DNA of 64,000 nt. Origin: Xenopus tropicalis. Lineage: Eukaryota > Chordata > Amphibia > Anura > Pipidae. Positions 25,228 through 55,227 of this stretch are shown here, piece by piece (position 1 is the stretch's first letter; every line of letters starts with the position of its first letter). Location of the stretch: positions 77,497,404-77,561,403 of the forward strand of contig NC_030678.2 in the NCBI RefSeq assembly GCF_000004195.4, given 5' to 3'. The position numbers and the translations under genes are program-made. A model generated the notes under the pieces. That model ran no database searches, was not told where the DNA came from, and was given only the letters and a program-made list of their open reading frames with translations.

Positions 25228-25393
25228 AAAAACTACTTGAACCCAAGGGGGCGGAGCAAGCTGCAAACAAAGATGGAGGCAAAGTGAATAAGCTCCAAGA
25301 CACAGGGGAGCCCATCAGCTTCTAAACATACCACACAGCAGTGAATCCTCGTGAAACGTGTCCCAACGACACTGGTGGAAACAAAGACACTAA

Positions 25394-25955
25394 GGGGCTG
25401 ATTTACTAATCCACGAACGATCCGAAGGCGTCCGAATGCATTTTTTTCGTAATGATCGGTATTTTGCGATTTTTTCGTAAATTGTTGCGACTTTTTCGTA
25501 GCCGTTACGACTGTTTCGCAAAATGTTGCGACTTTTTCGTAGCGTTACGCCTTGCGCGAATTGTCGGGACTTTTTTGTAGCCTTCGCGCCAAGTACGAAA
25601 GTTTCGGATTCATTCAAGCTTCAGTATCGTGACTTCTCTTGGGCCCGGTTGGAGCTGCAGAGTGCCATTGAGTCCTATGGGAGGCTTCCAAAATCATGCA
25701 AAGTCTGAAAATTTTGCCCGCCGTTTACTAGCGCTCAATACGAAAAAGTCGCGACAATGTACGAGCAAATCATAACGGCTATGAAAAATTTGCGACTTTT
25801 CGCGCAAGTCGTAACAGCTACGGAAAAGTCGCGACAATTTACGATAAAGTCGTAACGCCAACGAAAAAATTGCAAAAAATACGAAAAAGTCGCAAAATGT
25901 TCGTTTCCAATCCGAATTTTTCCCATTCGAATTCGTGGATTAGTAAATCAGCCCC
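25394..25955. mobile_element. Harbinger-like MITE in L1-a 5' UTR
   Basis: Ends GGGGCTGATTTACTAATCCACGAA and its mirror (TTCGTGGATTAGTAAATCAG then CCCC) are flanked by the 3-bp duplication TAA (25391-25393 and 25956-25958), the mark of PIF/Harbinger elements. Both arms are filled with many degenerate copies of a cgcgacttttt/cgta-type motif in opposite orientation. It is non-coding; open frames inside it are artefacts of the repeats. Confidence 0.8.
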
Positions 25956-25960
25956 TAATA

Positions 25961-26463
25961 ATGCCACCAAAACCAAAAAAATGTGCGTCAGCTGATCTTC
26001 GCTATATCTTTCAGCAGAGTCAGAGAGACCAAGATAGCGCCCAACCCGGGGAACAAATGGAAGGTGAAGACGCTGATCCTATCACAAAACAAGACCTCCG
26101 ACTACTGTTTTCTAATATAGAGAAAACGGTAAAGGCTGACCACACAAAAAACCACTTAAGAACTAACTACAGAAATCACTTCATTGGGAACTAGAGTCGG
26201 AGACCTCGAGAAACGCCTTGACGACATCACCGACTACACATACCAGGTAGATAAAGACATAACAGCACTCTACTCACAAGTGGAACAGATCCAATATGCT
26301 CAAGACGATGCTGAGAACCAGTCTCGTAGGAACAACATCAGACTACGAGGCATTCTGGAGACAGCCACAGATCTAAAGTCCCTATTAACAGATGTGTTCC
26401 AAGAGTTGCTACCAGATATTCCCCAGAGAGACTTGAGATGGACAGAGCCCACAGACCCTTAAG
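25961..26463 (+). pseudogene. L1-a ORF1 (truncated and frameshifted)
   Basis: The ATG at 25961 opens MPPKPKKCASADLRYIF; after a frame change the coiled-coil part follows (from about 26184: VGDLEKRLDDITDYTYQVDK) and then AENQSRRNNIRLRGI, the typical L1 ORF1p junction between coiled coil and RRM. The frame ends at 26463. The rest of ORF1 is missing except perhaps NVIVRMHFY just after it. ORF1p is the RNA-binding trimer of the L1 particle. Confidence 0.7.
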
Positions 26464-26524
26464 GCCCAAACCAGGCCAGGAGGAAAAACCGAGAAATGTC
26501 ATTGTACGTATGCACTTCTACAGG

Positions 26525-27300
26525 GCCACCATCAGAAATCACGGGGCCCCTTACAACAAAATTTTCAGGGCCCCCCCCTCCTCCCATGCCCCCAATGGTC
26601 CCCCCCAGTGAACCCTCCCATCAATACAAAGGACACACAGACATCGGTAGCCAGGGCCACCTAAAAAATTGGTAGCCAGGGCCCCCCTAAAACATTGGTG
26701 GCCAGGGGTTATGTTTTGCATTGGTGCCAGGGCAGGTACCCCCTAAAACATTGCTAACCAGCCCAGGGCCCCCTAAAACATTGCTGGTACTCCCCCAAAT
26801 TACTCAAACTATGGCTTACTCCCTGCTACTTCCTTACTGCTTCCTCTCGCATCCTTTTGCTCCCCCCCAGCACCCTCCGGCTCCCTCCCAGCATCCTCCT
26901 GCTTCCTCCCGGGCCCCTCAACCATCCTCCGCCCCCCCAGCATCCTTCTGCTTCCTCAAGTCCCCCCCAGCACTCTCCAGCTCCCCCCAGCATCCTTCTG
27001 CTCCCAGGGCCCCCCCAAGTATCCTCCCGCTCACCCCCAGTATCCTCCTGCTCCCCCCAGGGCACCCAAAGCATCCGCCTGCTTCCCCCAGGGCCCCCCC
27101 AAAGAATCCTTCAGCTCCCCCCAGCATCTTCCTGCTTCCCCCAGGGCCCCGCAAGCACCCTTCAGCTCCCCCCAGTATCCTCCTGCTTCCCCCAGGGCAC
27201 CCCCAGCATCCTCCTGCTTCCCCCAGGGCCCCCAAGCATCCTCCTGCTTCCCCCAGGGCACCCCCAGCACCCTCCTGCTTCCTCCAGCACCCACCTGATC
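26525..27300. repeat. C-rich minisatellite region interrupting L1-a
   Basis: The stretch is highly biased to C and built from variants of cagcatcctcctgcttcccccag and agggcaccccc, with units of roughly 25-35 bp. It starts with acagggccaccatcagaaat and several cctaaaacattg copies, and ends at about 27300. All six frames stay open for long distances because of the composition, giving proline- or glycine-rich nonsense. It replaces the end of ORF1 and the start of ORF2. Its origin is unknown to me. Confidence 0.65.
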
Positions 27301-27369
27301 CAACAGAAAGAACTAAACTACTGGCACAAAAATTTAGATAGAAAATTATTTCCTCAGCCAAAAACAAAA

Positions 27370-27999
27370 AAACCAAAGGGGTAGGTGTCCTCATCCATAG
27401 AAACAGAAATAACCCTAACAGCAATATACGCACCCAATGAAAAACAAACAGAATTCTTTCGCCAATTAGACAAACTCATAACAACCTTTTAGACACATGG
27501 AGGATAGCAAAGATTACACATTCTACTCCACTCCTCATGACTCATATAGCAGAATCGATCTTATCTTAACCTCTATCTCCCTGATAGAACTCTGACACCA
27601 AAAGTTATCCCATACTCCTGGTCGAACTGGTGATCTGACACCAAAGTTATCCCATACTCCTGGTCGAACCATGAAGTAATGATGTCTGCCTTTTTACTAA
27701 ACACCATCAAACCCAGAGGAGAATGAAAATTGAATGAATACCTATTAAATTTTAACCCAGTGGTCTAGGAAGTAACTCAAAGCATTCCCCAATACTTCTC
27801 AGACAACCAAAATGGCAAAGTCTCAGAAGAAATAGTATGGGCGGCCCACGAGCCAAGGTATATTAATCAAAAACACTTAATCAAACATCTTAATAGAAAA
27901 AGCAGAAAAATCCCTCCGAAACACAAACTGACTCTTCCATGGGAAAGGAAATAAAGCAGATACCCTATTAGCAAAACTACAGACACATAAAAAACATTC
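27370..27999 (+). pseudogene. L1-a ORF2 endonuclease piece
   Basis: In broken frames the text reads GVGVLIHRN, IYAPNEKQTEFFRQLDKLIT, DYTFYSTPHDSYSRIDLIL and SNHEV, motifs of the L1 apurinic endonuclease (including the SRID and S(D/N)H areas). A 40-45 bp tandem duplication (gacaccaaaagttatcccat...) sits at about 27590-27670. The piece is cut at 27999 by the insertion of L1-b. Confidence 0.65.
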
Positions 28000-28165
28000 A
28001 ACAATGATCCAAACGAGGGGGCGGAGCTGGATGCCGAGCGGTTAGGTCGCACTATACAGCAGCTCCACTGACTCTAATCCTGTGCGGCCCATCCTACCCA
28101 CCCCACTCTAAGTAAATTGTACCTCCGAGGTGCCCCCTGCTCTGTAGACCACCGCGACTGTGGAA

Positions 28166-28733
28166 ATGGGGAAAAGCACACAAAAGGTGCGCCCAGAGAT
28201 GGCGGCTAGGCTGGGCCAGTATGTGCGCAGAGCGCACCAAGATGGCGCCAGCAGCCCTGCGCCACATATAGAGCAACCAGCACCCGCCGACATAGCAGAC
28301 AACCAGGAAAACCCACCGACCTCCACACAAGACATCCTGGCAGCCATCGCTACCTGCCAGTCCTCCATAACAGCCACACTGACAACGAAAATAGAAGAGG
28401 TGAGAGTTGAAATTTCTCTTCTTAAACAAGATGTGCAGGCTATAAGGGAACGCACTGGGGCCCTAGAGGAGCGTATTAGCACACTAGAGGACCGCACAGC
28501 CCCTGTCCCACACTAGCTTTCCCAAATACAGAAGTTAATTAAACAGACCACCGATAAGCTGGAGGACATGGAAAACAGGCAGAGAAGGTCCAATATAAGG
28601 GTAGTCGGCCTGCCTGAGAGAAGTGAAGGGCCAAACCCTGAAACCTTTGCTGAACAATGGCTCAAGGACTTACTAGGAGCAGATACATTCTCACCGCAAC
28701 TGTGGTGGAACGGGCTCACAGAGTCCCCACAAG
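28166..28733 (+). pseudogene. L1-b ORF1, N-terminal part
   Basis: ATG at 28166 (MGKSTQKVRPEMAARLG) leads into a coiled-coil segment (EISLLKQDVQAIRERTGALE). After an in-frame TAG at 28514 come DKLEDMENRQRRSNIRVVGL and, in a second frame, VVERAHRVPT, the conserved L1 ORF1p motifs. The reading is cut at 28733 by the hAT insertion and continues at 43272. Confidence 0.8.
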
Positions 28734-28839
28734 TAGGGATGTAGCGAACCTAAAAAAAAATGTTCGCGAACCCGTTCGCGAACTTTCGCCGGAAAGTGCG
28801 AACGTTCGCGAACTTTGCGAACCCCATAGACTTCAATGG

Positions 28840-29490
28840 GAAGGCGAACTTTAAAACCTAGAAAAGCCATCTCTGGCCAGAAAACTGATTTTAAAGTTGT
28901 TTAAAGGGTGCCACGACCTGGACAGTGGCATGCAGGAGGGGCATCAAGGGCAAAAATTTCTCTGAAAAATACGTTGTTGACACAGCGTTGCGTTTTGTGC
29001 TGTTAAGGGGAGAAAACACACTACATTCCTAAACTTATGTAATAAACTGCTTTAAAAAGTCCGGCATCTACATTCCAATCAAGTCGTGTAAAGGTTACGG
29101 CCGGTTCACACGCAAAGACAAAACGCCGCGTTTACTGCAACGAAAAAAAACGCAAAAAGCTTTAATGATACTGTCAAGTGTGCGAATATTAGTTTTTACT
29201 AGTTGCTTGTCACCTCCAGGACGTTCGTCCCGTCGGTGGGAATATTTCTGTAGTGGTGTGTTTAGCAGTCACCGTGCTTGTGCGCACGTGCATGGTCAGG
29301 CAGAGGTAATTCAATGTACAGTAACGTGAACCAAAAAACACTGATTCTGCAGTGTGGGCCCAGGTTTGTCCTACCTTTTCGATCACCTGTGGTGACCATA
29401 AAAGATACGATTTTGCCGCCGTTGCAGAACCCTGAAAAATCAGGAATGTGTACATTCCTAAAAAATTATGGTTTTTTTGTTGCAGCCACT
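28840..29490. other. hAT left subterminal non-coding region
   Basis: Between the subterminal GTTCGCGAAC sites and the first tandem array there is unique-looking sequence without a recognisable gene. It forms the far 3' side of the minus-strand transposase gene. Confidence 0.4.
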
Positions 29491-31320
29491 GAAGCACAGA
29501 GGACAGAAAAAATATGTTAGATAGATGGTATCATAACCAATCCTGAGGCAGAACCTTTAAAAAATCGAAGATAGCGTACCAAGCACAGAAGACAGAAAAA
29601 ATATCTTAGATAGATGGTATCATAACCATGCCCCAGGCAAACCCTTTCAAAGAACTAAGATAGGGTGACAACAAGCACAGAAGACATTAAAAACATCAAA
29701 GCTAGATGGTATAATAACCATGCCCCAGCCAAACCCTTTCAAAGAACTCAGATAGGGTGACAAGCACAGAAGACATTAAAAACATCAAAGCTAGATGGTA
29801 TAATAACCATGCCCCAGCCAAACCCTTTCAAAGAACTCAGATAGGGTGACAACAAGCACAGAAGACATTAAAAACATCAAAGCTAGATGGTATAATAACC
29901 ATGCCCCAGCCAAACCCTTTCAAAGAACTAAGATAGGGTGACAACAAGCACAGAAGACATTAAAAACATCAAAGCTAGATGGTATCATAACCATGCCCCA
30001 GCCAAACCCTTTCAAAGAACTCAGATAGGGTGACAAGCACAGAAGACATTAAAAACATCAAAGCTAGATGGTATAATAACCATGCCCCAGCCAAACCCTT
30101 TCAAAGAACTCAGATAGGGTGACAACAAGCACAGAAGACATTAAAAACATCAAAGCTAGATGGTATAATAACCATGCCCCAGCCAAACCCTTTCAAAGAA
30201 CTAAGATAGGGTGACAACAAGCACAGAAGACATTAAAAACATCAAAGCTAGATGGTATCATAACCATGCCCCAGCCAAACCCTTTCAAAGAACTCAGATA
30301 GGGTGACAAGCACAGAAGACATTAAAAACATCAAAGCTAGATGGTATAATAACCATGCCCCAGCCAAACCCTTTCAAAGAACTCAGATAGGGTGACAACA
30401 AGCACAGAAGACATTAAAAACATCAAAGCTAGATGGTATAATAACCATGCCCCAGCCAAACCCTTTCAAAGAACTAAGATAGGGTGACAACAAGCACAGA
30501 AGACATTAAAAACATCAAAGCTAGATGGTATCATAACCATGCCCCAGCCAAACCCTTTCAAAGAACTCAGATAGGGTGACAAGCACAGAAGACATTAAAA
30601 ACATCAAAGCTAGATGGTATAATAACCATGCCCCAGCCAAACCCTTTCAAAGAACTCAGATAGGGTGATAACAAGCACAGAAGACATTAAAAACATCAAA
30701 GCTAGATGGTATAATAACCATGCCCCAGCCAAACCCTTTCAAAGAACTAAGATAGGGTGACAACAAGCACAGAAGACATTAAAAACATCAAAGCTAGATG
30801 GTATCATAACCATGCCCCAGCCAAACCCTTTCAAAGAACTCAGATAGGGTGACAAGCACAGAAGACATTAAAAACATCAAAGCTAGATGGTATAATAACC
30901 ATGCCCCAGCCAAACCCTTTCAAAGAACTCAGATAGGGTGACAACAAGCACAGAAGACATTAAAAACATCAAAGCTAGATGGTATAATAACCATGCCCCA
31001 GCCAAACCCTTTCAAAGAACTAAGATAGGGTGACAACAAGCACAGAAGACATTACAAACATCAAAGCTAGATGGTATCATAACCATGCCCCAGCCAAACC
31101 CTTTCAAAGAACTCAGATAAGGTGACAAGCACAGAAGACATTAAAAACATCAAAGCTAGATGGTATAATAACCATGCCCCAGCCAAACCCTTTCAAAGAA
31201 CTAAGATAGGGTGACAACAAGCACAGAAGACATTAAAAACATCAAAGCTAGATGGTATCATAACCATGCCCCAGCCAAACCCTTTCAAAGAACTCAGATA
31301 GGGTGACAAGCACAGAAGAG
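29490..31320. repeat. Tandem array, 91-bp monomers in 273-bp trimer units
   Basis: The monomer (agcacagaagacattaaaaa ... catgccccagccaaaccctt ... agatagggtgacaa) is about 91 bp. Three variants alternate: the spacer is gacaac or gacaag, actcag or actaag precedes it, and ggtatcata replaces ggtataata in one of three. The ggtatcata variant falls at 29981, 30254, 30527, 30800 and 31073, an exact 273-bp higher-order period; the last step is 181 bp, so one monomer was lost. Monomers at the left edge (29490-29650) are diverged. Confidence 0.9.
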
Positions 31321-31481
31321 TAGAAGAGAGAAAAATTCAGGATTTACCTGTCCAAAAAGTTTGGCTTACAATTAAGCCAGTAGGATTTGCACCCTAGTTT
31401 GTACGGTGGTGGAGGAGGACGCTAAAGGACAGCTGTGTGTGGTGTCAAGCGGCGTGCAGAGAAGGACAGCTGCATGGGCAG

Positions 31482-32579
31482 TCAGAACAAGTCTTCCGGC
31501 GTGCAGTAACCCTCCGAGATCCATGCCTCATTCATTTTAATAAAGGTCAGGTAATCAACACTTTTGTGACCTAGGCGAGTTCTCTTCTCAGTTACAATCC
31601 CTCCTGCTGCACTAAAGGTCCTTTCTGAGAGGACACTTGAGGCAGGGCAAGACAACAGATTTATGGCAAATTGTGACAGCTCTGGCCACAGATCAAGCCT
31701 TCGCACCCAGTAGTCCAGGGGTTCATCGCTCCTCAGAGTGTCAATATCTGCAGTTAATGCCAGGTAGTCCGCTACCTGCCGGTCGAGGCGTTCTCTGAGG
31801 GTGGATCCAGAAGGGTCCTGGCGCTGCCTTGGACTGAAAAAACTTTGCATGTCTGACGTTACAGAGTGGCCAAAGTGCATTGTCCTTGCAGGTGTGCTCG
31901 TGGGAGGATTACCGGCACCTCTGCCCCTGGAATGTGGAGTGACATCACCCTTAAAAGAATTGTACAACATGTTTTGCAGGCTGGTTTGGAAATGCAGCAT
32001 CCTTTCGGACTTGTGGTACGTTGGTAACATTTCTGCCACTTTATGCTTGTAAGGAGGGTCTAGTAGCGTTGCCACCCAGTACAGGTCCTTCTCCTTAAGC
32101 CTCTTGATACGGGGGTCCTTCAACAGGCATGACAGCATGAAAGACCCCATTCTCACAAGGTTGGATGCAGAGGTATCCATCTCCCCTTCCTCGTTATCAA
32201 GGACTACGTCCTCATCCACCACCGTCTCCTCCCCCCAGCCACGTACAAGACCAGGGCTCCACAAAAGGTGACCACAAGCCCCCTGGGAAGCCTGCTCCTG
32301 TTGGTCTTCTGCCTCCACAAAGCCACCTTCCTCCTCTGACTCCGCTTCTGACACCTCTCCCTGTGTTGCAGCAGGTGCCTGGGAACGTTCTGGTGATTCC
32401 GCCCAGAAATCAGGCTCTTGGTCACGCTGGTCTACAGCGTCATCTGTCACTCGTCGCACGGCACGCTCAAGAAAAAAAGCAAAGGGTATTAGGTCGCTGA
32501 TGGTGCCTTCAGTGCGACTAACCATATTTGTGACCTCGTCAAAAGGGCGCATCAGCCTGCAGGCGTCGCGCATAAGCAC
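31482..32579 (-). pseudogene. hAT transposase, C-terminal part (second frame)
   Basis: This 365-residue frame continues the transposase from the upstream frame. It has an acidic linker, then RIKRLKEKDLYWVATLLDPPYK and the C-terminal hAT dimerisation domain: DYWVRRLDLWPELSQFAINL, LSCPASSVLSERTFSAAGGI and KRTRL. Those motifs and their order are diagnostic of hAT transposases of the ZBED type. It overlaps the upstream frame at 32552-32579 and is offset by one base, with the change of frame at a T7 run near 32590-32600 (minus-strand reading). The first few codons of the open frame are not a real start. Confidence 0.85.
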
Positions 32580-34633
32580 CCAGTAACGGGGGAAAAAAAT
32601 CCCCAGCTCTGCAGCAGACGTTGCAGCAGACGTTCAAACATCATTAGGGTGGAATTCCAGCGAGTCTGGCTGTCGCAAATTAAACGCCTGACTGACAAGT
32701 TGTGCCGCCGCTGAATGTCAGCAAGGCGTGCCATGGCTGTGTAGGAACGTCTGAAATGGCCAGACACCTTCCTGGACTGCCTGAGAATGTCCTGCAATCC
32801 TGGGTACTTCGAGACAAACCGTTGGACTATCAAATTTAAAACATGTGCCATGCAGGGTACATGTGTTAAATTGCCCAGTCTCAGTGCTGCCAACAGATTG
32901 CTTCCGTTGTCACACACCACTTTTCCAATTTTCAGTTGGTGTGGGGTCAGCCACCGATCGGCCTGTGAGTGCAGAGATGACAGGAGTACAGATCCGGTAT
33001 GGTTTCTACTTTCCAGGCACGTCATGCCCAAGACAGCATGACAACGCCGTACCTGGCACGTCGAATAGCCTATGTGGAGCTGGGGGTGCACAGGTGTGGA
33101 GGAGGACACAGCAGCAAAGGAGGAAGAAGCCGAGGAAGAAGCCAAGTTAGAAGACGACTTAGAAGACGAGTTAGAGAGCAAAGGAGGAGTAGAGGTGGTG
33201 GCAGACCCGCATGCAACCCGTGGCGGTGACACCAACTCCACTGTTGTTGAACCACGCATTCCCTGCTTCCCAGCCATCACCAGGTTCACCCAGTGGGCAG
33301 TGTAGGTGACATACCTGCCCTGACCATGCTTGGAGGACCATGTGTCAGTAGTCATATGGACCTTTGCCCCAACACTAAATGACAGAGATGCAGTGATTTG
33401 GCTCTGCACATGCTGGTACAGGTGTGGTATTCCCTTCTGTGAAAAAAAATTGCGGCTGGGTACCTTCCACTGCGGTGTCCCAATTGCTACAAATTGGTGG
33501 AAAGCCTCAGAGTCCACCAGCTGGTATGGTAAAAGCTGGCGGGCTAAGAGTGCAGACAATCCAGCTGTCAGACGCCGGGCAAGGGGATGACTCGGAGGCA
33601 TTGGTTTCTTACGCTCAAACATGGCCCTCACAGAAACTTGGCTGGGGGCAGATGAGCAGGAACTGGAAGGCGGAGTGGAGGGTGGTTGAAACGGGTCAAG
33701 GACAGCAGAGGTAGAGCAGTAAGATGCTGCAGCAGAAGGAGGGTGGCTTAGCGTTTGGCTGCTGCCTTTGAGGTGTTGCTCCCATAGTGCTTTGTGTTTG
33801 GCGTTCATGTGCCTTCGCATAGCAGTTGTACCTAAGTGGGTGTTGGGCTTCCCAAGACTCAGTTTCTGACTGCACTCATTGCAAATTACAGCGCTTTTGT
33901 CAGAGGCACACACATTAAAAAAATGCCACACTGCTGAGCCTTTTGATGTGGGCTTTCTAGCAGTAACAGTAGAAGTTGGCGGGTGCGTTGGCTGGCTGAC
34001 CACAGGTGCCGATTCATGTTGTTGCCCTACTGTTCCCTGGGAGCTGTCCCTGCTTCTTCTAAGTCTTAATCTCCTCCTGCCTCTCTGACTCTCCGTCTCT
34101 CCATCTGAACTATCCTCCTCTTGCTCTTTTCTTGTGGGCACCCACAAAATATCACTCTCCTCATCATCATTCTCCTCAGATGCATCAATTTCTTCTGACA
34201 GCTCACAGAAGACAGCAGCAGCGGGGACCTCATCACACCTTATGTCCATCTCTGTTGTGTTGCCTGCCTGAATTATGATATCTGGTGTAACGTCCGCATC
34301 TACTTCATCTTCTTCTGGCAATAATGGTTGCGCATCACTCAGTTCAACAAACTCATGAGTAAATAACTCCTCTGACTCCAGTGAAGAAGGGGCGGCGGTG
34401 GTGGAGGAAGTGGTACGTGGGGTGCCCATAGCAGAGGAGGATGAGGATGTTGTGGCAAAGTTAGAAACAGTAGAGGATGGGGTGTGCTGTGTAAGCCAGT
34501 CAACTACCTCTTCAGCATTTTGGGAGTTCAGGGTAAGTGCCTTTGGAAAACTGGGCAATTTCCTAGGGCCACAGGATATCATAGCAGCACGGCCCCTAGT
34601 GCCTCTGCGTGGCGGCCTGCCTTTGCCTGGCAT
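32552..34633 (-). CDS. hAT transposase, N-terminal part with BED zinc finger
   Basis: The frame opens with ATG at 34633 (MPGKGRPPRRGTRGRAA) and runs 693 residues. After a serine-rich and acidic N-terminus there is a BED-type zinc finger at roughly residues 230-285 (SAVWHFFNVC...CNEC...HMNAKH, a C2H2 arrangement). Next comes the RNase H-like catalytic fold: KVHMTTDTWSS (the first acidic position), YVTYTAHWVN, VVCDNGSNLLAAL and VPCMAHVLNLIVQ, with TRWNST near the end. The frame ends shortly after FERLLQRLLQSWGFF, where the family would continue into the C-terminal half found in the next frame. The DNA-binding, catalytic and dimerisation parts are all present apart from that single shift. The gene is upstream-flanked by the 168-bp array. 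Confidence 0.85.
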   Translation of the reverse strand: MPGKGRPPRRGTRGRAAMISCGPRKLPSFPKALTLNSQNAEEVVDWLTQHTPSSTVSNFATTSSSSSAMGTPRTTSSTTAAPSSLESEELFTHEFVELSDAQPLLPEEDEVDADVTPDIIIQAGNTTEMDIRCDEVPAAAVFCELSEEIDASEENDDEESDILWVPTRKEQEEDSSDGETESQRGRRRLRLRRSRDSSQGTVGQQHESAPVVSQPTHPPTSTVTARKPTSKGSAVWHFFNVCASDKSAVICNECSQKLSLGKPNTHLGTTAMRRHMNAKHKALWEQHLKGSSQTLSHPPSAAASYCSTSAVLDPFQPPSTPPSSSCSSAPSQVSVRAMFERKKPMPPSHPLARRLTAGLSALLARQLLPYQLVDSEAFHQFVAIGTPQWKVPSRNFFSQKGIPHLYQHVQSQITASLSFSVGAKVHMTTDTWSSKHGQGRYVTYTAHWVNLVMAGKQGMRGSTTVELVSPPRVACGSATTSTPPLLSNSSSKSSSNLASSSASSSFAAVSSSTPVHPQLHIGYSTCQVRRCHAVLGMTCLESRNHTGSVLLSSLHSQADRWLTPHQLKIGKVVCDNGSNLLAALRLGNLTHVPCMAHVLNLIVQRFVSKYPGLQDILRQSRKVSGHFRRSYTAMARLADIQRRHNLSVRRLICDSQTRWNSTLMMFERLLQRLLQSWGFFSPVTGCLCATPAG

Positions 34634-34664
34634 TTTTTTTATTTTTACAAAACAACAACAACTT

Positions 34665-35480
34665 GGGTGATGTTTCTGGACACGGAATTATTATTGTTAT
34701 TTAGACAGATTGTGAAAAAGCTCACACAGCTAGGTGGCACTTGGTTGCAGACACTGGGCAACAAGGCCTGCAAGGGCAACGTATACAGTAGTGGATACGG
34801 AATATATTATTGCTGGTGGAAAACCGTCACTCAGGTTGTGTTTCTGGACACGGAATTATTATTGTAATTTAGACAGATTGTGAAAAAGCTCACACAGCTA
34901 GGTGGCACTTGGTTGCAGACACCGGGCAACAAGGCCTGCAAGGGCAACGTATACAGTAGTGGATACGGAATATATTATTGCTGGTGGAAAACCGTCACTC
35001 AGGTTGTGTTTCTGGACACGGAATTATTATTGTAATTTAGACAGATTGTGAAAAAGCTCACACAGCTAGGTGGCACTTGGTTGCAGACACCGGGCAACAA
35101 GGCCTGCAAGGGCAACGTATACAGTAGTGGATACGGAATATATTATTGCTGGTGGAAAACCGTCACTCAGGTTGTGTTTCTGGACACGGAATTATTATTG
35201 TAATTTAGACAGATTGTGAAAAAGCTCACACAGCTAGGTGGCACTTGGTTGCAGACACCGGGCAACAAGGCCTGCAAGGGCAACGTATACAGTAGTGGAT
35301 ACGGAATATATTATTGCTGGTGGAAAACCGTCACTCAGGTTGTGTTTCTGGACACGGAATTATTATTGTAATTTAGACAGATTGTGAAAAAGCTCACACA
35401 GCTAGGTGGCACTTGGTTGCAGACACCGGGCAACAAGGCCTGCAAGGGCAACGTATACAGTAGTGGATACGGAATATATT
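34665..35480. repeat. 168-bp tandem array, left part (about 5 copies)
   Basis: The same position in the unit (ctcacacagctaggtggcac) recurs at 34721, 34889, 35057, 35225 and 35393, an exact 168-bp period. The units are nearly identical. The array lies immediately upstream of the minus-strand transposase start, so it may include its promoter or 5' UTR; that is inference. It is cut at 35480 by the gypsy element and continues at 41151. Confidence 0.95.
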
Positions 35481-36149
35481 TGTAACAAAAGGTGCCTTAC
35501 CGGCACGGCGGGGACGCCCGCCGCGCCGTCCTCTTCATGCGCCGGCTTCCTTATAGTGGGCGCGCGCGTGCGCGCTTCCGCATTTAAAGGCGCATGCGCG
35601 CTGGCGTGATGACGTCAGCGCGCAATGGCGCGAAATTCAAAGGTATTTAAAGGGACGGTTGTTTACATTTTGTTGCCCGTGATAGGATTTGATCCTGGTG
35701 CTTTTCTGAGCCTTGTACACTTCGTTTCTGTATCCTGCCTTGTTGCCTTCCTGTGTTTTGACCCGGCTTGCTCCTGACTATTCTGATTATCCATATCTGA
35801 CCCCGGCTTGTACTTTGACTACGATTTCGTCTCCTCCTGCTGTATTGATTACCCGGTTTTGACCCTTGCCTGTCTGACTACCCTTGATTGCTGCCCGCCC
35901 CGACCCAGCCTGCCTGACGACGACCTTGTTTAACCCAATTCGTACCGTGATCTTTGGCCTAACTGACTTTTTACAGTCGTGCCCCATTGCTAGCCAGAGC
36001 TCCTGCTTTGCACCTCTCGTATAAGTCCAGGTGGCATCCGAGTAGCTGAGGGCTCCTCCCGAAGCCAAAGGCGGTCACGCTACTGGTGAAGCACGAGCTG
36101 AGACCAGGGTGCTTGGCACTAGCTCTGGTATTGGGTGCCGACCGTGACA
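35481..36149 (+). repeat. Gypsy 5' LTR
   Basis: It runs from TGTAACAAAAGG to CCGTGACA. A TATA-like TATTTAA lies at 35644-35650, and the probable RNA start is near 35675, 31 bp downstream, judging by the primer-binding site complement. Direct comparison with 40460-41150 shows one substitution and one 22-bp length difference. Confidence 0.95.
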
Positions 36150-36150
36150 T

Positions 36151-36160: not shown

Positions 36161-36161
36161 C

Positions 36162-40456: not shown

Positions 40457-40459
40457 TAA

Positions 40460-41150: not shown

Positions 41151-41155
41151 ATATT

Positions 41156-42220: not shown

Positions 42221-42239
42221 TATTTAGACAAATTGTTAT

Positions 42240-45480: not shown

Positions 45481-46990
45481 CCAAATTTCTAGACGGTGTC
45501 CCACTCCCTAAACTCACCAGAGAAAATACAGGGTTTCTTAACCAAGACATCACCCTAGATGAAGTTGCAGAGGCAATAAAATCCTTCCCCCCAGGCAAGG
45601 CACCAGGCCCAGATAGCCTGCCCATGGAGTGGTACAAGGCACACGGAGACATCATAAACCCCCAGTTGACCACTCTATTCAATAAAATCACCCTTGGGAC
45701 CTCACTCCCAGACTCCTCCAAATTGGCCACGATTACACTAATTCCAAAAGAAGGCAAGCCCCCAGAGAGGTGTGGATCCTATAGGCCGATCTCTCCTGAA
45801 TTCCGATGTCAAAATCCTAGCGAAAGTTCTAACTAAACGCCTTAAACAGATAATAGATCATCTAATCCACCCGGACCAGACAGGCTTCATGCCCAATAAA
45901 GGCACGGATATTAACATCAGGCGACTATATACAAATCTAACTACTAGACCCCGGAATTCAGGGGAGAGAATAGTGGTGTCCCTGGACACAGAGAAGGCCT
46001 TCGATACGGTTGAGTGGCCCTACCTATGGCAAATACTAGCCCGATACTCCCTGGGAGACAAATTCATAACATGGATAAAAGCCCTGTACGACACTCCAAG
46101 GGCCAGAATAAGGGTGAACTCGGGTTTGTCAAGGGAACTCAGCCTTACAAGGGGGACCAAACAAGGCTGCCCACTATCGCCCCTTCTGTTCGCCCTTGCC
46201 ATTGAGCCCATGGCGATACAAATTAGAGCAAACCCCAAAATCAAGGGGCTGCAACTGCAAAACCTTGAAGAAAAACTATCATTATACGCAGACGACATGC
46301 TGGTGTACTTGGCAGACCCAAAAGAATCCCTATCCAAGAGAAATAGCTCAGTTTGGGGAATTTTCCAGACTAAAGGTGAACTGGGAAAAGTCACTAATCT
46401 TTCCAATTGACCCAGAAGGGACTAGAGACCCCACGCATGGCCCATCCCTACAATGGGTGGACAGGTTCAGATACTTAGGAATAGAAATCCATAAGGATCT
46501 CTCAAAATATGTAGATCTGAACCTGACCCCCATTATACGGACCCTGAAACTCAAAACTCAAAACTGGGCTACACTACCGCTCTCCCTACCAGGGCGCATA
46601 AACAATGTGAAAATGATCTTCTTACCCAAATTCCTGTATGCCTTCCACAAAAATAATACCCAAAAAATGGTTTAGGAATCTGGATACAATTGTCAGGGGA
46701 TTTGTTTGGGCCGGGGAACACCCAAGAATAAAATGGCAAACTTTACAGGCTCCACAAAACAAAGGGGGACTAGCATTACCCAATTTCCAACTGTACTACT
46801 ACTAGTCAACTTGTCTTCGCCTGGTGGTGGCTAAACCCCAACCCAAAAAACCAAGCATTAGTATTAGAGGCAGGGGCGATCTCCTCCTATGAGGCGTTAG
46901 CCAACCAACTACACAGGGGTCCTACTCCCATATACCCTCTCACACCGCCCATGAAAACCGTGGTCACAGTGTTTCAGAGAACAGTGGTAA
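45477..46990 (+). pseudogene. L1-b ORF2, reverse transcriptase
   Basis: Two overlapping frames (45477-45836 and 45772-46410) carry PPGKAPGPDSLPMEWYKAHG, ATITLIPKEGK, then [70 protein letters not shown] and YADDML (about 46284-46301). These are the RT blocks of L1. A third frame continues the thumb region to about 46675. The C-terminus is displaced by the CR1/Rex1-like insertion. Confidence 0.8.
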
Positions 46991-49022
46991 ACTCATACTG
47001 TAAACTCTCTAAATGGTCCAAGTGGACAGTGCTGCGTTTAATGAATATAAACACTATAACAAGTGTTGTAAAACAGCAATCCGGAAGGCAAAGATAGAAA
47101 ATGAGGAGCGCATCGCGGCCGAGGCCAAGACTAACCCCAAAAAGTTTTTTAAGTATATTAATAGTAAAAAGATGCAGGTTGAGGGTGTGGCCCCATTGAG
47201 TTATAATAACAATATGGTTACAGCGGATACAGAAAAGGCAGATGTGCTTAACCAGTTCTTTTCTTCTGTGTATACAGTAGAGGAGCCAGTGGGCCAAGTC
47301 CCACCCAATAGCTTCACTGTTGCCTCAGCTCCAACTATACAGTGGTTGGCACAGGATATGGTGCTTAAAGGGTTACACACGATAAATGTAAACAAGGCAC
47401 CGGGGCCAGATGGAATACACCCTCGGGTACTGAGAGAGCTAGGGGCAGAATTGCAGTGGCCCTTGTTTCTGATATTCTCAGACTCGCTCTCATCAGGTAT
47501 GGTACCTAGGGATTGGAAGAAGGCGAATGTCACTCCCATATTTAAAAAGGGAGTAAGATCTCAGCCTGGCAATTATAGGCCTGTAAGTTTGACATCCGTG
47601 GTGGGCAAGTTATTTGAAGGCTTGTTAAGGGATCACATTCAAAATTATGTAGTGGAGAATGGCATTATGAGCAGTAATCAGCATGGCTTTATGAAGGACA
47701 GGTCATGTCAGACCAATTTAATTGCTTTTTATGATGAGGTAAGTAAGAAGCTGGACAGTGGGGATGCAGTAGATATAATCTATTTGGATTTTGCCAAAGC
47801 ATTTGATACCGTTCCCCACAAACGACTGCTTTCTAAGCTAAGGTCTATTGGTCTTAGTGAAGTCGTTTGCACATGGATTGAAAACTGGCTACAGGATCGG
47901 GTACAGAGGGTGGTTGTTAATGGCACATTCTCTACTTGGAGTAAGGTTCTCAGTGGGGTCCCTCAGGGTTCTGTACTGGGTCCACTTTTGTTTCATTTGT
48001 TCATAAATGACTTAGGGGAGGGTATTATGAGTAATGTATCAGTGTTTGCAGATGACACAAAACTCTGCAGACCAGTCAATTCTATCCAGGATGTGACATC
48101 CCTGCAGCAGGATCTTGACCAACTGGCAATCTGGGCAGCTAAGTGGCAGATGAGATTTAATGTGGATAAATGTAAGGTCATGCACCTGGGATGTAAAAAT
48201 ATGCAAGCCCCGTATACCCTTAATGGGACTGCACTAGGCAAATCCATAATGGAGAAGGATCTTGGAGTCCTTGTAGATAATAAACTTGGCTGTAGCAAGC
48301 AATGCCAGGCAGCAGCTGCAAGGGCAAACAAGGTTTTGAGCTGTATTAAAAGGGGTATAGATTCACGGGAGGAGGGGGTTATTCTTCCCCTTTACAGAGC
48401 ACTGGTAAGGCCCCATCTAGAATATGCTGTTCAGTTTTGGTCTCCAGTGCTCAAACGGGACATTATTGAGTTAGAGAGGGTCCAGAGAAGGGCAACTAAG
48501 CTGGTAAAGGGTATGGAAAGCCTCAGTTATGAAGAAAGACTGGCCAAGTTGGGTCTGTTTACACTGGAGAAGAGGCGCTTAAGAGGTGACATGATAACTA
48601 TGTATAAATATATAAGGGGATCATATAATAACCTCTCTAATGTTTTATTTACCAGTAGGTCCTTCCAACGGACACGAGGGCACCCACTCCGTTTAGAAGA
48701 AGGGAGGTTCCATTTAAATATTCGGAAAGGATTTTTTACAGTGAGAGCTGTGAAGTTGTGGAATTCCCTCCCCGAATCAGTCGTACTGGCTGATACATTA
48801 TATAGCTTTAAGAAGGGGCTGGATGGATTCTTAGCAAGTGAGGGAATACACGGTTATGGGAGATAGCTCTTTTTTCCCCTCTGAGGCAAATTAGAGAGGT
48901 TTCAGATGGGGTTTTTTGCCTTCCTCTGGATCAACTTGTAGTTAGGCAGGTTAGGTATAGGCATTATGGTTGAACTTGATGGACGTATGTCTTTTTTCAA
49001 CCCAACTTACTATGTTACTATG
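46990..49022 (+). mobile_element. CR1/Rex1-like LINE, 5'-truncated
   Basis: The L1-b ORF2 text is interrupted by an unrelated LINE that begins inside its ORF and ends in a short ttactatg repeat (gttactatg), as is usual for CR1/L2/Rex1-type tails. The left edge is approximate and I could not define a TSD. After 49022 the L1 text resumes with ctatggggtaatgacgcc (LWGNDALPHL). Confidence 0.75.
47013..48866 (+). CDS. CR1/Rex1-like reverse transcriptase (endonuclease missing)
   Basis: The 617-residue frame has no stop. It contains NKAPGPDGIHPRVLREL, NYRPVSLTSVVGKLFE, HGFMKDRSCQTNL, IIYLDFAKAFDTVPHKRLL, LSGVPQGSVLGPLLF and the catalytic FADDTK box (about 48046-48063). The C-terminal part has LEYAVQFWSPVL, LERVQRRATKLVKG and RRLRGDMI, typical of CR1/L2/Rex1-group LINEs. 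The N-terminal endonuclease is gone through 5' truncation at insertion, so the copy was dead on arrival although its frame is still open; that suggests a rather recent insertion. Confidence 0.85.
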   Translation: MVQVDSAAFNEYKHYNKCCKTAIRKAKIENEERIAAEAKTNPKKFFKYINSKKMQVEGVAPLSYNNNMVTADTEKADVLNQFFSSVYTVEEPVGQVPPNSFTVASAPTIQWLAQDMVLKGLHTINVNKAPGPDGIHPRVLRELGAELQWPLFLIFSDSLSSGMVPRDWKKANVTPIFKKGVRSQPGNYRPVSLTSVVGKLFEGLLRDHIQNYVVENGIMSSNQHGFMKDRSCQTNLIAFYDEVSKKLDSGDAVDIIYLDFAKAFDTVPHKRLLSKLRSIGLSEVVCTWIENWLQDRVQRVVVNGTFSTWSKVLSGVPQGSVLGPLLFHLFINDLGEGIMSNVSVFADDTKLCRPVNSIQDVTSLQQDLDQLAIWAAKWQMRFNVDKCKVMHLGCKNMQAPYTLNGTALGKSIMEKDLGVLVDNKLGCSKQCQAAAARANKVLSCIKRGIDSREEGVILPLYRALVRPHLEYAVQFWSPVLKRDIIELERVQRRATKLVKGMESLSYEERLAKLGLFTLEKRRLRGDMITMYKYIRGSYNNLSNVLFTSRSFQRTRGHPLRLEEGRFHLNIRKGFFTVRAVKLWNSLPESVVLADTLYSFKKGLDGFLASEGIHGYGR

Positions 49023-49794
49023 CTATGGGGTAATGACGCCCTCCCTCATCTCTGTACCATGCCAGATGTAAACACCTGGGCAGTTGCGGGAGTGAAGCAT
49101 CTTGGGGACGTCACCACGGCTGGGAGATTCAAACAGTTTGCACAATTACAGACTGCATAACCGCATGCTGTTTAGATTCCTCCAGCTCAGACATGCACTA
49201 AACACCCAATTCCCAGACAGTGCCCCGGATATAACAGTATCATCACTAGAACGATACCTGAGATGCCCAGACCTTAGTAAACCAGTCAGCTGGTTCTATA
49301 CCATTCTTCTCCAAGAGGACTTTGACCCACTTAAACATTTTGCCCAAAAATGGCAGCAGGACCTCCCCCAGATAGAGGAAGGTACCTGGAAGGATATCCT
49401 AAACCAAATACCAGAAACCAATATCTCCTCTAGGGACAGATACATACACACCAAGTTTCTTAACCGGGTGTACCTTACACCTCACAGGCTGGCTCAGATA
49501 TACCCGGGACACCCAGATGTTTGTCCCAAATGCAACACAGGACAAGGTAACTATATGCACATATTCTGGGAATGCTCTGAGATACAGCGATTTTGGTCAG
49601 AAATATGGACCTACTGCGCTACAGTCCTGGGACTCCCAAACGTTCACTCCTCCACCCTGTGTCTGCTTGGACACACAGAAGGACTGTCACTAAACAAGTA
49701 TGAGGAACTATGCCTTCTCCAAATTCTGCATTTTGCCAAAAAGGCCATCCTAATGACCTGGAAAGCAACGGCACCACCCACCCTGGGATTTTGA
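49023..49794 (+). pseudogene. L1-b ORF2, C-terminal part
   Basis: The first frame (NDALPHLCTMPDVNTWAVAG) passes by a shift into 49102-49794, which reads LQLRHALNTQFP, YIHTKFLNRVYLTPHRLAQI, PDVCPKCNTGQGNYMHIFWE and a closing hydrophobic tail. The CX2C...HX4 arrangement is the L1 C-terminal cysteine motif. TGA ends the frame. Confidence 0.8.
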
Positions 49795-50253
49795 AAAAAA
49801 CTGGTCAATGACACGCTCCCCAGTCAAAAACTAACATACCTGGCCAGAGGATGCCCAAACAAATTCATTTGTGATAAATGGCTGGCAGACGCTCATTGAA
49901 CACCAGGACTGACACACTCCCCAAGCAGGACACAACAAAAGGGAACATTAAACCGCCATACCAGATGGATAATGGCAAAACAAGGAAGCAAGGAAAAGAC
50001 ACGAGACGTGATGCTTTAATCACAACTTTCTTTATTTGGGGACACCTGAACGGACCATGGCGCGAACCTGAATAAATACAAACATACAAGACATGCAAGG
50101 AAGCCCACCGCACCCCCCTACCCCCCCCCCACTAACACCCAGGGGCATTGTCACACAGCCCCAACCTTCTGTCTTCTTTCTTCCTTCTTTCCTCTTTTTC
50201 CAGCAAATTGTTGTTTTTTGAAAATCTATAATAAAGAAAATCTTAAAAAAAAA
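49795..50253 (+). other. L1-b 3' UTR and A tail
   Basis: The non-coding end has pyrimidine-rich stretches (ctttcttccttctttcctct), an AATAAA-type signal at about 50230 and an A run to 50253, followed by the TSD. Confidence 0.75.
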
Positions 50254-50268
50254 AACAATGATCCAAAC

Positions 50269-51388
50269 AATTAAAACACCCACAGAAATAAAACACCTCC
50301 CACCCCGGCAAATCTTACAATACTGAAAAGATTTCTAGAAAGCTGTACACTGCCAAAAATTTCACAAACAGAGTTCCAGAAATTACAAGCTGAGATCACA
50401 GAAGAAATTACAGCAGTTATCAAAAACTCGAAACCCAAAAAAGCCCCAGGCCCAGATGGGTTACTATGCTGTACTATAAGAAATTTAAGAACTACTCCCA
50501 CATATGCAATCCTTATTCAATAATCTCCTCCAAAATAAGTGTAAGATACCCCCAGATATGCTGAGAGCAAACATAACAGTTATACCTTAACCACCAAAAG
50601 ACCCCATGTACTGCCAAAACTACCACCCCATATCACTAATCAACAACGATGTTAAAATCTACGTGAAAATCTTAGCAGACAGGTTAGCCAGAATCGTGCC
50701 ACTATGTGCTACACCCAGATCAAGTGGGATTCATCACCGGCAGAGATGCCACTGGCAATATCAGAAGTATTGCTTCTCTATACCCAGTATCTTCCTCTCT
50801 TTAGATGCAGAAAAGGCTTTCAAAATGGTGGACTGGCAATTCTTAAAAAACACACTGGAGAATAGAGGTTGTAGCTTTAAATTCAGCAATGCAATCATGG
50901 CCCTATATAACTGACCAACAGCCAGAGTCTGCTCATCAGGTTACTATTCAGAGCCATTCAACATCTATAATGGGACGAGGCAGGGGTGCCCATTGTCACC
51001 CCTCCTATTCGCATTATGCATTGAACCACTAGCACAGAGGATCAGATAAAATGCAAACATCACAGGCATAAACATTGGGAAAGACACATTTAAAATAGCC
51101 CTATTTGCAGATGACACACTCCTTACCTTACTTAGCAATGTCCCTCCAAACCCACAACCAAAAACTCTTGGAGATGAACTTCAGATTTAAATGGCGTAAA
51201 GATACTATGAAATACCTAGGTATCAACTTGACCCCAAAATTTAAAGAACTGTGCAATAGAAATTACCCCCAAATGATCCCCAATGAAATTTCCCCTGATC
51301 TCTCTAATACACTCATGGGGGAAGTAACACATTTCTTGGCTAGGTAGACTGCACACCTTGAAGATGATGATAGTTCCTAAAATACTAT
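50269..51388 (+). pseudogene. L1-a ORF2, reverse transcriptase piece
   Basis: Broken frames give KPKKAPGPDG, NYHPISLINNDVKIYVKILA (frame 50606-50914), [38 protein letters not shown] and FADDTLL (about 51105-51125). This is the RT of L1-a, picked up directly after L1-b. It ends at a Harbinger-like MITE at 51389. Confidence 0.75.
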
Positions 51389-51959
51389 GGGGCCGATTCA
51401 CTATAGGTTGATAAAACGAGTGCTATTTATAGCATGCGTTAAAAGTGTTATCACTTCTTATTTTTTGCGACTTAACGATCGATTCACTAAAAGGACACTT
51501 GACATAATTAAGAAGCGATGTTCTTTGCGTTCTGGCGATGACTGATATTATGCATGTACCCATTACTTTCGGAAAACTACTGTTCTGAAAATTACCATTT
51601 CCCTGAAAACTGGAGGATGCATCACTCTAGGACGATCACATACTTAAAAAAATCCGACTGCAAACTCCATGTTGTGTTTCCAAACGCTCACAAACTGCAA
51701 TGTACTGCCTACCCTAAGTAGGTGTAAATATTCGCACAGAATAAAGCGATATTTTGTGCGTTCAATGCTTTATATGTGTTTTTGAATCATGCGTTAGTAT
51801 TATTTCTATTCGCTAATTAAAACAATGTGATTTTTGCGCATGCGATATGCGTCTTAACGCATGCAAAATTACTTTGATGAATCGGTACTTCATTATCGCG
51901 CACTTTTTAATGCAAAAAAGCATGCGATAAGCGTTATCCACCTTTAGTGAATCGGCCCC
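51389..51959. mobile_element. Harbinger-like MITE in L1-a RT
   Basis: The ends GGGGCCGATTCACTATAGGT and TTTAGTGAATCGGCCCC are inverted repeats. The flanks TAT and CAT are consistent with a 3-bp duplication with one later change, and removing the insert restores the L1 reading (KILYLFCTLP). The interior has many gcatgcg/ttaacgca motifs in both directions. Non-coding. Confidence 0.75.
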
Positions 51960-53950
51960 CATATCTTTTCTGTACCCTCCCTATTCCAATCAACGTAGTA
52001 GATCTAGAGAAGCTACAAAAAGAGATGCTTGTGTTTTTCTGGGACAATAAACCCCATAGAGCAAATAAAAAAGTAATCATGAGATCAGTATCACAAGGGG
52101 GGCTAAATTTTCCCACCTTACTTAACTATTGGAAGGCAGCCCAATTAGCCCAGATGGTTAAAATGCACTGTATGCCTACAGCTGTCAGATAGGTGGCACT
52201 AGAAACGCAACTATTGTAAATCAATGCATGGACATTGGCAGCCTGACCCCAGTAGGTGGACTTTTAACATGGGACGATTTAAAGCAAAGATCAGAAATCC
52301 CCAACAGGGAATTCTTCCGATACACACAGATCAAACATTTCATCCAATCGAAACTGGGAAAGAAAAATAAACAAAATACAATCTTCGAACATCTGATCCG
52401 CCACCCATACAATAAACAAAAAATAACATGGCTTTACAGCAAACTAAACTCCCTCAAAATACCAGACAAAACTAAACACATGGAATGCTGGGAACAAAGG
52501 CTGCATATAACTGCAGATGATGACCAATGGCATTCAATCCTAGAAAACATCAGAAAGGCATCTATTAACACCATAATCAAAGAAAACGCCTACAAAGTAC
52601 TCTATGACTGGTACCTTACACCACTGAAACTAAACAAAAATCTACAACTCAAACCCTACCTGCTACAGAGGATGCTGAGAAGTAGGAGATGAACTACACA
52701 CCTTGTGGACATGCCCCCAATTATCGGTACTTTGGAAAGACATCTTCAGACTCATAAGACAACTACTGCAGAAAGAAATCCAGCCAGATCCCCAGCTTGC
52801 CCTACTTTTCCGTAACCCGGAAAGCTTAAGCAAAACTGAATTCAAACTATGTACCCAAATTTGCTTGGCAACCAGATGTGGAATAGCTAAAAAATGGAAG
52901 GCGGTTCTGGGATAAACTAATGGTAAAACACAAAACTTGGATCAGCTCAGACCCCTCTCCCTTTGTCCCAATTGTAAATAACCTTGATTTCCCCCCAGGT
53001 ACAGATTCTCGGGAATTCCAATGGTGGACAGCGAATCAATATATAGACATTGGCAGCCTAACCCCACTAGGTGGACTTCTGACATGGGACGATTTAAAGC
53101 AAAAATCAGTAATTCCCAACAGGGAATTCTTCCGATACACACAGATTAATTAAACATTTCATCCAATTAAAACTGGGGTAGACGAACAGACAAAATACAA
53201 TCTTTGAACATCTAAGCCGCCACCCACATAATAAACAACAAATAACATGGCTCTACACCAAACTAAACAACTACAAAATACCAGACAAAACTAAATATAT
53301 GGAACGCTGGGAACAAAGGCTACATATGACTGCAGAGGATGACCAATGGCAAACAATCCTAGAAAAAAATCAGAAAGGCATCTATCAACACCATACCGTA
53401 ATCAAAGAAAATGCCTATAAACTACTCTACGACTGGTACCTCACACCTCTGAAACTAAACAAAATTTACAAATCAGACCCCACTTGCTACAGGGGATGCG
53501 GAGAAGTAGGCGATGAACTACACACCTGGTGGACATGTCCCCAAATCTCAACACTTTGGAAAGATATCTTTAGACTCATAAGCCAATTACTACAGAACAA
53601 AATCCAACCAGACCCCCAGCTCGCCCTACTACTTCGCAAACCGGAAAATTTAACCAAGAATGAAATTAAATTATGCTCTTAAATTTGCCTAACAACCAGA
53701 TGCGGAATAGCTAAAAAATGGAAAGCTGCACCACCACAACTCCCTGAAATAATAACCAAAATCTGGTGGATATCCACGATGGAAAAAACTGACTGCACTG
53801 ATCCACCACAAAATAGAAACATACAAAAAGATATGGTCCCCATGGACCACATTCAAGAACCCAACTAGACTTAAAAATGGACAACCCCAGAAAATAAACC
53901 CAGGCATCAGAGGCAGAACAAAAGGAAAAACACATTTTAATAATGACTAG
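51960..53950 (+). pseudogene. L1-a ORF2, C-terminal part with internal duplication
   Basis: The frame 51947-52192 (VVDLEKLQKEMLVFFWDNKP) leads to 52228-52692 (SLTPVGGLLTWDDLKQRSEI, YDWYLTPLKLN). The same text then appears a second time from 53046 (SLTPLGGLLTWDDLKQKSVI; frame 53299-53682, LLYDWYLTPLKLNKI, WWTCPQISTLWKDIFRLISQ). The offset is 815 bp, and the copies differ at many positions. The tail has the L1 C-terminal motif CGEVGDELHTWWTCP. Confidence 0.75.
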
Positions 53951-54081
53951 GCCAGAGTCCAACCCCCCCCCACCCCCTACCTGATCCCATATTCACTCTT
54001 TCTTTACTTTCTCCTTTACATGTTTTATATGTAATTTACTTTGTTATAAAACAAACAATAAAAACAGTTTAAAAAAAAAAA
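53951..54081 (+). other. L1-a 3' end and A tail
   Basis: A short 3' UTR with AATAAA (at about 54056-54061) is followed by an A run and the second copy of the 17-bp TSD. Confidence 0.7.
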
Positions 54082-55227
54082 AAAAACTACTTAAACCCCA
54101 TATACAAAGCCAAATGCATTTTATGCTTACCCAGCACTTAATCATAGATTGATTTCTTTTCTAATCTCTCACCATCTCAGCAGAACTATGGCAATGGCAA
54201 CAGTGAATTACTGCCCATCAAGTTAGCTCTCCAGGAGTGGTGGCACTTTCTGGAGGAGGACCTCATTCCATTACCTTTCTCACTACTCTGGAATACAGTC
54301 AGGCTTAATGGACACTCTTCTATACTAGATTAAATGTTAACATATGTTAACATATAATCCAGGCCCCAAAAAATGAAAAGTTTCATATCGAAGTTTCACT
54401 CATGAGGATCCTTCCATAATATGTAACTCTCCCCCTTCCATAATATGTAACTTTTTCCTCAAATTCCTTCTCAAATGTAAATACCTTAATCTTCTGCTGC
54501 TAACTTACATCTCTCCATTCTATTACAGAATTAAGATGCCCATACACGTACGGATAAAATCGTACAAACCTAGTTTCAATTAGCTCAGTACTTGCACCTC
54601 CTGACACTCCTATTGGCATGGCTTATGTTCCTCCTGAGCTTTGGCATTCTATATTACAGCAGACCCAAACAAGCCGGTCATCCTGGGGTAGAAAAGACTT
54701 TGGAGGTATTAAATCGTCTAGTTTGGTGGCCTTCTATGAGAGAAGATGTCAAAGACTTGTTGCTTCCTGCTCTGTCTGTGGGTTAATTCAGCCTCTTCCT
54801 GTTCCCTCTCATCAGGATTTTATTCACCATGGATTTTATTGTTGAATTACCACCTTCCAAGGGCAACACAGTTATATGGGTGGTAATTGACTGCTTCAGC
54901 AAGATGGCACATTTCATGCCTCTACGTAAACTTCCATTTGCTGTGGATATGTCTCAGCTTTTTATTCATCACATTTTTCACCTCCATGGATTTCCAGCAG
55001 AGATTGTGTTCCCTATTCATCTTCAAATTCTGGCATTCCTTGTGAGCGTGCAATCACCAAACCAACAACCATCCAAATATCAGATAAAACTTCTCATTTA
55101 TTTGAACTTAGTTAAAACTTGCTTGATGCATTTTATGTCACTAGTCAAGTCTGGTGAAGAGCCCCTTGGCTCAAAAGAACTATGCCAATTGGGGACAAAG
55201 TTTGGTTATCCACCAGGAACATCCATC

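Follow-up and report, generated by a model that had tools for sequence, protein, structure and literature searches.

A 64,000-nucleotide stretch of the Xenopus tropicalis genome (contig NC_030678.2, positions 77,497,404 to 77,561,403; here called the window and numbered from its first letter) contains a nest of mobile elements that almost certainly arose through successive independent transpositions, each into an element already in place. The nesting and the target-site duplications (TSDs) are plainly visible in the single assembled sequence from which the nest was read. There are at least five levels: a relic Ty3/gypsy element is the outermost host (level 0), and inside it lie, in turn, two L1 insertions (L1-a and L1-b), a large hAT element and a young Ty3/gypsy element. 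The first-pass annotation of this DNA had counted four levels, and its identification of these as L1, L1, hAT and gypsy holds; the pieces of a relic gypsy pol on both sides of L1-a raise the number to at least five. The nest is real, had been correctly seen and slightly under-counted, and is ordinary in kind. The part worth following is the composite 3' end of L1-a, in which two L1 lineages that, from their substitution pattern, diverged under selection stand within one TSD pair.

Nested insertions and their order

The outer L1 insertion, L1-a (25245..54081, plus strand, level 1), has ORF2 homology, an A tail and a composite 3' end in which the end of ORF2 is doubled; it is flanked by AAAAACTACTTGAACCC (25228..25244) and AAAAACTACTTAAACCC (54082..54098), which agree at 16 of 17 positions. 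L1-b (28015..50253, plus strand, level 2, about 5.7 kb without its hAT and CR1-like inserts) lies between two copies of AACAATGATCCAAAC (28000..28014 and 50254..50268) that match at 15 of 15 positions. It has an A tail, an ORF1 protein and an ORF2 with endonuclease and reverse transcriptase (RT) domains (Exo_endo_phos, E 7.3e-10; RVT_1, E 2.8e-30). The ORF2 matches the LINE-1 ORF2 protein structure 8uw3 at E 2.4e-94, and its relatives include sequences at 59% identity from X. tropicalis and at 68% from an X. laevis gene model. Within L1-b, the hAT element (28734..43263, minus strand, level 3, 8,855 bp net of the gypsy insert) has perfect 16-bp terminal inverted repeats (TIRs) and is bounded by CCCACAAG at 28726..28733 and 43264..43271, identical at 8 of 8 positions. 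The young gypsy element (35481..41150, plus strand, level 4) is flanked by ATATT at 35476..35480 and 41151..41155. All four TSDs, including the single mismatch around L1-a, were found as the first-pass annotation had described them.

The background frequency of such matches was estimated from 400,000 random position pairs in the window, its own tandem arrays included; pairs less than 200 bases apart were skipped yet kept in the total. Matches of 16/17 or better occurred 5 times, 15/15 matches 4 times, 8/8 matches 18 times and 5/5 matches 563 times. The L1 and hAT duplications, which stand at fixed element ends, are not due to chance. The 5-bp gypsy duplication is weak when taken alone and is backed by the internal control that the hAT array provides, described below. 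TSD length is characteristic of transposon families and served as a class criterion, and the element ends also fit their classes: perfect 16-bp TIRs in hAT, long terminal repeats (LTRs) of the form TGTAAC...GTGACA in gypsy, and A-rich tails in the L1 insertions.

Excising the inserts and joining their flanks, as the first-pass annotation had suggested, restored L1-b ORF1 across hAT, the L1-a ORF2 frame across L1-b, and the hAT array across gypsy. The joined L1-b ORF1 reads ...ERAHRVPT up to the hAT junction and RLLPAGAPPRPF... beyond it, and it matches the L1 ORF1p structures 2ldy, 2ykp and 2yko at E 4.9e-7 to 1e-6, without a gap at the junction. The left half of this frame matched 33 Pfam families, of which the 25 listed were mostly coiled coils and did not include the L1 model, and the right half alone matched no Pfam family. 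The L1-a ORF2 join across L1-b is in frame, and a single alignment spans it in five of the eight best-scoring L1 relatives listed (of 120). L1-b ORF2 carries a further insert, a CR1/Rex1-like long interspersed nuclear element (LINE; 47034..49020, plus strand), with TGCT at 47030-47033 and 49021-49024; joining through one shared TGCT restores the L1-b frame as ...KWTVLWGND.... Three Xenopus relatives (P0001, P0002 and P0004) match L1-b ORF2 on either side of this insert, with overlaps of 1 to 3 residues. The insert has an uninterrupted RT frame of 617 codons (47013-48863), which begins with a few codons of L1-b sequence. RVT_1 is the only domain found in it, and the clade name, taken from the first-pass annotation, is presumptive.

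These joins also bear on the possibility that the nest is an artefact of assembly, a false join of separate loci. Tandem arrays, a usual cause of misassembly, do lie close to the junctions, and the copy numbers of the hAT arrays in the assembly could be wrong. However, matched TSDs at every level given above, resumed reading frames and an array join with 0 mismatches would not be expected from a false join, and we consider an artefact highly improbable.

Beyond the L1-a TSDs, both flanks contain remains of a Ty3/gypsy pol, collinear and on one strand. The left piece (24881..25163, plus strand) corresponds to residues 352-384 and 411-458 of the young gypsy pol (E 5.7e-5 for both sub-pieces combined, with word size 2 and composition correction off). 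The right pieces (54154..56242, plus strand) fall between residues 532 and 1104 of the same protein and are interrupted by a miniature inverted-repeat transposable element, MITE3 (55449..55647), which is related to MITE1 described below (64 nt at 87.5% identity). At E<1e-3, the left flank alone was matched by 12 of 120 gypsy homologues and the right flank alone (54099-54330) by all 120, and the 157-codon relic frame at 54787-55257 on its own gave no Pfam match at 0.001. As a control, the left flank joined to an unrelated stretch of the window gave 8 matches among the 120 homologues at E<1e-3, and those listed lay entirely inside the left flank. The reading of the relic gypsy as the host of L1-a, and so as a fifth level, appears sound, with the alignment made mostly flank by flank and not through the junction.

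Decay of the coding sequence tends to increase with depth in the nest. Stops and frameshifts taken together, per 100 aligned codons, amount to 0 in the young gypsy (634 codons, from the second part of pol), 0.10 in hAT (1 in 1040), 0.70-1.14 in L1-b, 1.3-6.3 in L1-a and 4.3-7.7 in the relic gypsy. This trend supports the order of arrival and gives no date.

Several observations weigh against so orderly a succession. The decay ranges of adjacent levels touch or overlap, and elements may be defective already when they insert, so that decay is not strict evidence of order. The join of the relic gypsy is not cleanly bridged: an alignment runs across it in 5 of 120 homologues, and among the four listed of these five, one (P0194) is misplaced. 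Three of the eight best L1 relatives listed do not cross the L1-a join. On the joined L1-b ORF1, the Pfam family Transposase_22 stays below its cut-off (14.7 versus 22.4 bits, E 0.039); its best stretch, 141-235, covers the join, and the structures match better. The coding text of every host had been said to resume exactly after each insert. That is so for L1-b ORF1 around hAT and for the hAT array around gypsy (0 mismatches in 336), and around the CR1-like LINE it is so only up to the 4-bp overlap. Around L1-b, the L1-a text resumes in frame and no more exactly than that, since the alignment with the relative P0106 has an 8-residue gap adjoining the join.

L1 elements copy themselves via RNA. 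The relic gypsy must therefore have been in place before L1-a arrived, and L1-a before L1-b, unless an L1 RNA had carried a very long insert; by the same reasoning, hAT came after L1-b. The order relic gypsy, L1-a, L1-b, hAT thus follows from the nesting. As to mechanism, which we infer from what is known of the biology of the families concerned, the old gypsy element would have been present first, L1-a would have entered it by target-primed reverse transcription, and L1-b would later have entered L1-a in the same manner. The large hAT element would then have moved into L1-b by cut and paste, and the young gypsy would have integrated within the 168-bp array of hAT, either before or after hAT reached L1-b. 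The order had been put forward as fully fixed, and this stands from L1-a to hAT, while young gypsy integration relative to hAT arrival is not fixed by the nesting. Nor is the nest the dated stratigraphy that had been proposed, as its chronology is relative only. The nest most likely has no function.

L1-a also contains smaller features. MITE1 (25394..25955) has TAA on either side (25391-25393 and 25956-25958) and ends of the type GGGGCTGATTTACTAATCC. Harbinger MITEs are defined by TIRs together with a 3-bp TWA duplication, and MITE1, which has no transposase, is tentatively assigned to that superfamily on this pattern. MITE2 (51389..51961), with the TIR GGGGCCGATTCACTA, interrupts the L1-a ORF2 homology, which breaks off before it and picks up after it. 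At its ends no clean 3-bp TWA duplication was found, TA or TAT being the best match, so that of the two Harbinger MITEs originally named, only MITE1 keeps the label. A C-rich, minisatellite-like block lies at about 26520-27310, and the L1-a coding text is lost across it. The first-pass annotation had made no mention of this block, of MITE3, of the three hAT arrays, of the relic gypsy as host or of the doubling at the L1-a 3' end.

The hAT element and the young gypsy within it

The hAT transposase is encoded in two frames on the minus strand (31482..34687), with a zf-BED domain (PF02892, E 3.7e-7), a C-terminal dimerisation region (PF05699, E 1.6e-16) and one frameshift between them. Together with the 8-bp TSD and the TIRs, these frames place the element among the hATs. 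A search for relatives gave six at E<=1e-5; the best of them (P0241) is 80% identical over 92% of the query, and an X. tropicalis protein matches at 77% over 44%. Three tandem arrays make up 4,434 bp, or 50%, of the net length of the element. Array 1 (29492..31309) has about 20 copies of 92/89-bp units, array 2 (34671..42236) has 168-bp units and is split by gypsy into 34671-35480 and 41151-42236, and array 3 (42251..42975) has about 7.8 copies of 95-bp units. In a comparison of nine 168-bp units, three to the left and six to the right of gypsy, all were identical except the one at the array end, which differs at 62 positions. The 168-bp array starts some 40 nt upstream of the point where the transposase probably begins, and a promoter role for it is conceivable from this position. 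The octamer TTCGCGAA occurs five times in the window, always in the outer 250 bp of hAT (three times in 28734-28983 and twice in 43014-43263), a distribution that makes it a likely transposase-binding motif. A hAT element with half of its 8.9 kb in arrays is relevant to the carriage of satellite DNA by transposons.

The young gypsy has LTRs at 35481-36149 and 40460-41150, which start with TGTAAC and end with GTGACA, and open gag (36123-37154) and pol (37133-40444) frames, all on the plus strand. Its domain order of protease, RT, RNase H and integrase, together with a chromodomain, the LTRs and the 5-bp TSD, identifies it as Ty3/gypsy, and a piece of its pol is 92% identical to an X. tropicalis sequence. 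Joining its flanks with one ATATT reproduces the uninterrupted hAT array without a mismatch over 336 nt, and that array contains 10 intact copies of the 18-nt target site. The array therefore serves as its own empty-site control. The two LTRs differ by one substitution in about 668 aligned sites and by 22 bp in length, and this pair is the only clock in the nest. Frog L1, CR1, Ty3 and satellite sequences are described in PMC10794172, of which the available text yielded no substitution rate for dating, and hence the LTR difference is not expressed in years.

The integration of the young gypsy is later than the existence of the hAT array. Whether it also followed the arrival of hAT in L1-b is a separate matter, as the TSDs are compatible with either order. 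hAT elements move as DNA, by cut and paste, and such elements can carry inserts, so that gypsy could have entered hAT elsewhere and been brought into L1-b in one step by a 14.5-kb hAT. With LTRs that differ so little, however, that move would have to be very recent, and because the hAT transposase frame carries a frameshift, the gypsy-laden element would have needed transposase from elsewhere. We regard this course of events as unlikely.

Self-primed reverse transcription is a feature of the Tf1/sushi group of Ty3/gypsy elements, and a candidate self-priming site occurs in the young gypsy at 36151..36160 (plus strand), where 10 nt immediately past the 5' LTR are complementary to 35675-35684 in the 5' LTR. 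Such complementarity was equalled in 9 of 5000 shuffles and by 3 of 3000 internal 14-mers. The sole substitution between the two LTRs falls within the complementary site. The pol frame also contains a Tf2-1-like SH3 domain beside the chromodomain. The likeness to the Tf1/sushi type thus consists of chromodomain, SH3 domain and candidate priming site, and is a likeness at the level of sequence.

The composite 3' end of L1-a

The end of ORF2 occurs twice in L1-a, both times on the plus strand: copy 1 (52219..52902) continues the body of the element, and copy 2 (53034..53726) extends to the 3' end and the A tail. The copies are 84.9% identical, with 94 differences in 683 aligned sites. Over 677 framed sites, the differences fall 25, 16 and 53 times on codon positions 1, 2 and 3 (p 5e-6). 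Across 222 codons, the rate of synonymous change (dS) is 0.47 and that of nonsynonymous change (dN) 0.084, giving a dN/dS of 0.18 (bootstrap 0.11-0.29), compared with 1.05 and 1.93 in the two wrong frames. Simulated neutral divergence gave a mean dN/dS of 0.67, and none of 1000 runs was as low as the observed value. Most of the divergence therefore arose while both copies were working L1 genes.

These numbers bear directly on a plain tandem duplication after insertion. The copies adjoin, share a strand and are 84.9% identical, as such a duplication would leave them. However, the low dN/dS and the codon-position bias point to divergence under protein selection and not in a dead copy, and we reject this explanation as improbable. 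A second candidate, in which copy 2 would be an independent L1 inserted into copy 1, was also rejected: no remainder of copy 1 follows the A tail, and the 5' TSD is matched directly behind the tail.

Our preferred explanation, which is unproven, is template switching between two L1 RNAs. In a single insertion, reverse transcription would have started from the 3' end of an L1 transcript and then switched to a transcript from a different L1 lineage, leaving an L1-L1 chimera. We put this at close to an even chance. The single TSD pair around both copies fits it. The same TSD pair would equally be seen if the composite had already been present in the source element or had arisen by gene conversion after insertion, and together these two routes are a serious possibility, if one that falls short of an even chance. 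Self-comparison of the 97 homologues (from 120) with at least 1150 residues found a C-terminal ORF2 duplication in none, a result that gives no support to such a duplication as a general trait of L1 ORF2. It speaks against the two routes as well, and does so weakly as these homologues are distant relatives. Among 97 homologues that match both copies, copy 1 was the better match in 73, copy 2 in 23 and neither in 1, counts that do not settle the origin.

Template switching or RNA ligation is the origin given in the available text of PMC13174262 for chimeras of L1 with other RNAs, such as U6/L1 and Alu/L1. The likeness to L1-a lies in the single TSD pair and in the sequence of two RNAs joined in sense; here, by contrast, both parts are L1, come from two lineages and overlap in the 3' end of ORF2. 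The main text of that article nowhere contains the string "L1-L1". If the template-switching explanation is true, L1-a is a natural recombination between two L1 RNAs at insertion, of a kind that could give rise to mosaic L1 lineages.

Related systems and other features of the window

Two elements of Xenopus laevis resemble parts of the nest: Tx1, an L1-like element that lies inside one of DNA type, and 1723, a large DNA element with internal tandem repeats. They are likened to the nest and to hAT, respectively, from their general description only. A literature search on Xenopus nests, 1723, Tx1 and hAT elements with internal arrays returned no title describing this element among the matches listed, a weak negative, as many subscription papers lie outside such a search. 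PMC9659126 reviews tandem repeats borne by DNA elements of Xenopus, and its accessible text covers satellites carried by MITEs (Xmix/Xstir and miDNA4). Those satellites likewise sit on a DNA transposon, but here the carrier is a long hAT with a transposase interrupted by one frameshift and with three arrays that make up half its length.

Nested transposons, and chronologies drawn from them, are already well known. According to the parts of the articles available, chronologies of this kind were obtained with REANNOTATE (PMC2672092) and TRANScendence (PMC5657132), and 48% of the repeats of human chromosome 2 were nested in another repeat by the former. As in those studies, an insert in a host sets the relative order here, and LTR divergence dates the LTR elements; the differences are that a single locus is concerned, that it has at least five levels, and that a tandem array acts as its own empty-site control. 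The nest is a clean worked case of at least five strata, one of them with that internal control, and with decay tending upward with depth.

Other mobile-element sequences lie outside the nest. A DIRS-like element, a label that we presume from its general features, occupies 19760-24170, with inverted terminal repeats at 19760-19852 and 24078-24170 (91% identical), an RT frame and other long frames that match no Pfam family. The RT at 21555-22037 had been tried as a left piece of the relic gypsy, as it matches gypsy RT at E 1.3e-11, and was set aside as part of this DIRS-like element and as a different region of pol. At 60895-62182 two frames are open, and one of them matches DUF4371 barely over the cut-off (32.8 versus 32.1 bits); we take DUF4371 to be linked to hAT elements, so that this may perhaps be a second hAT-type remnant. 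Finally, a fragment of L1 ORF2, 39% identical to that of L1-b, lies on the minus strand at 63577-63825.

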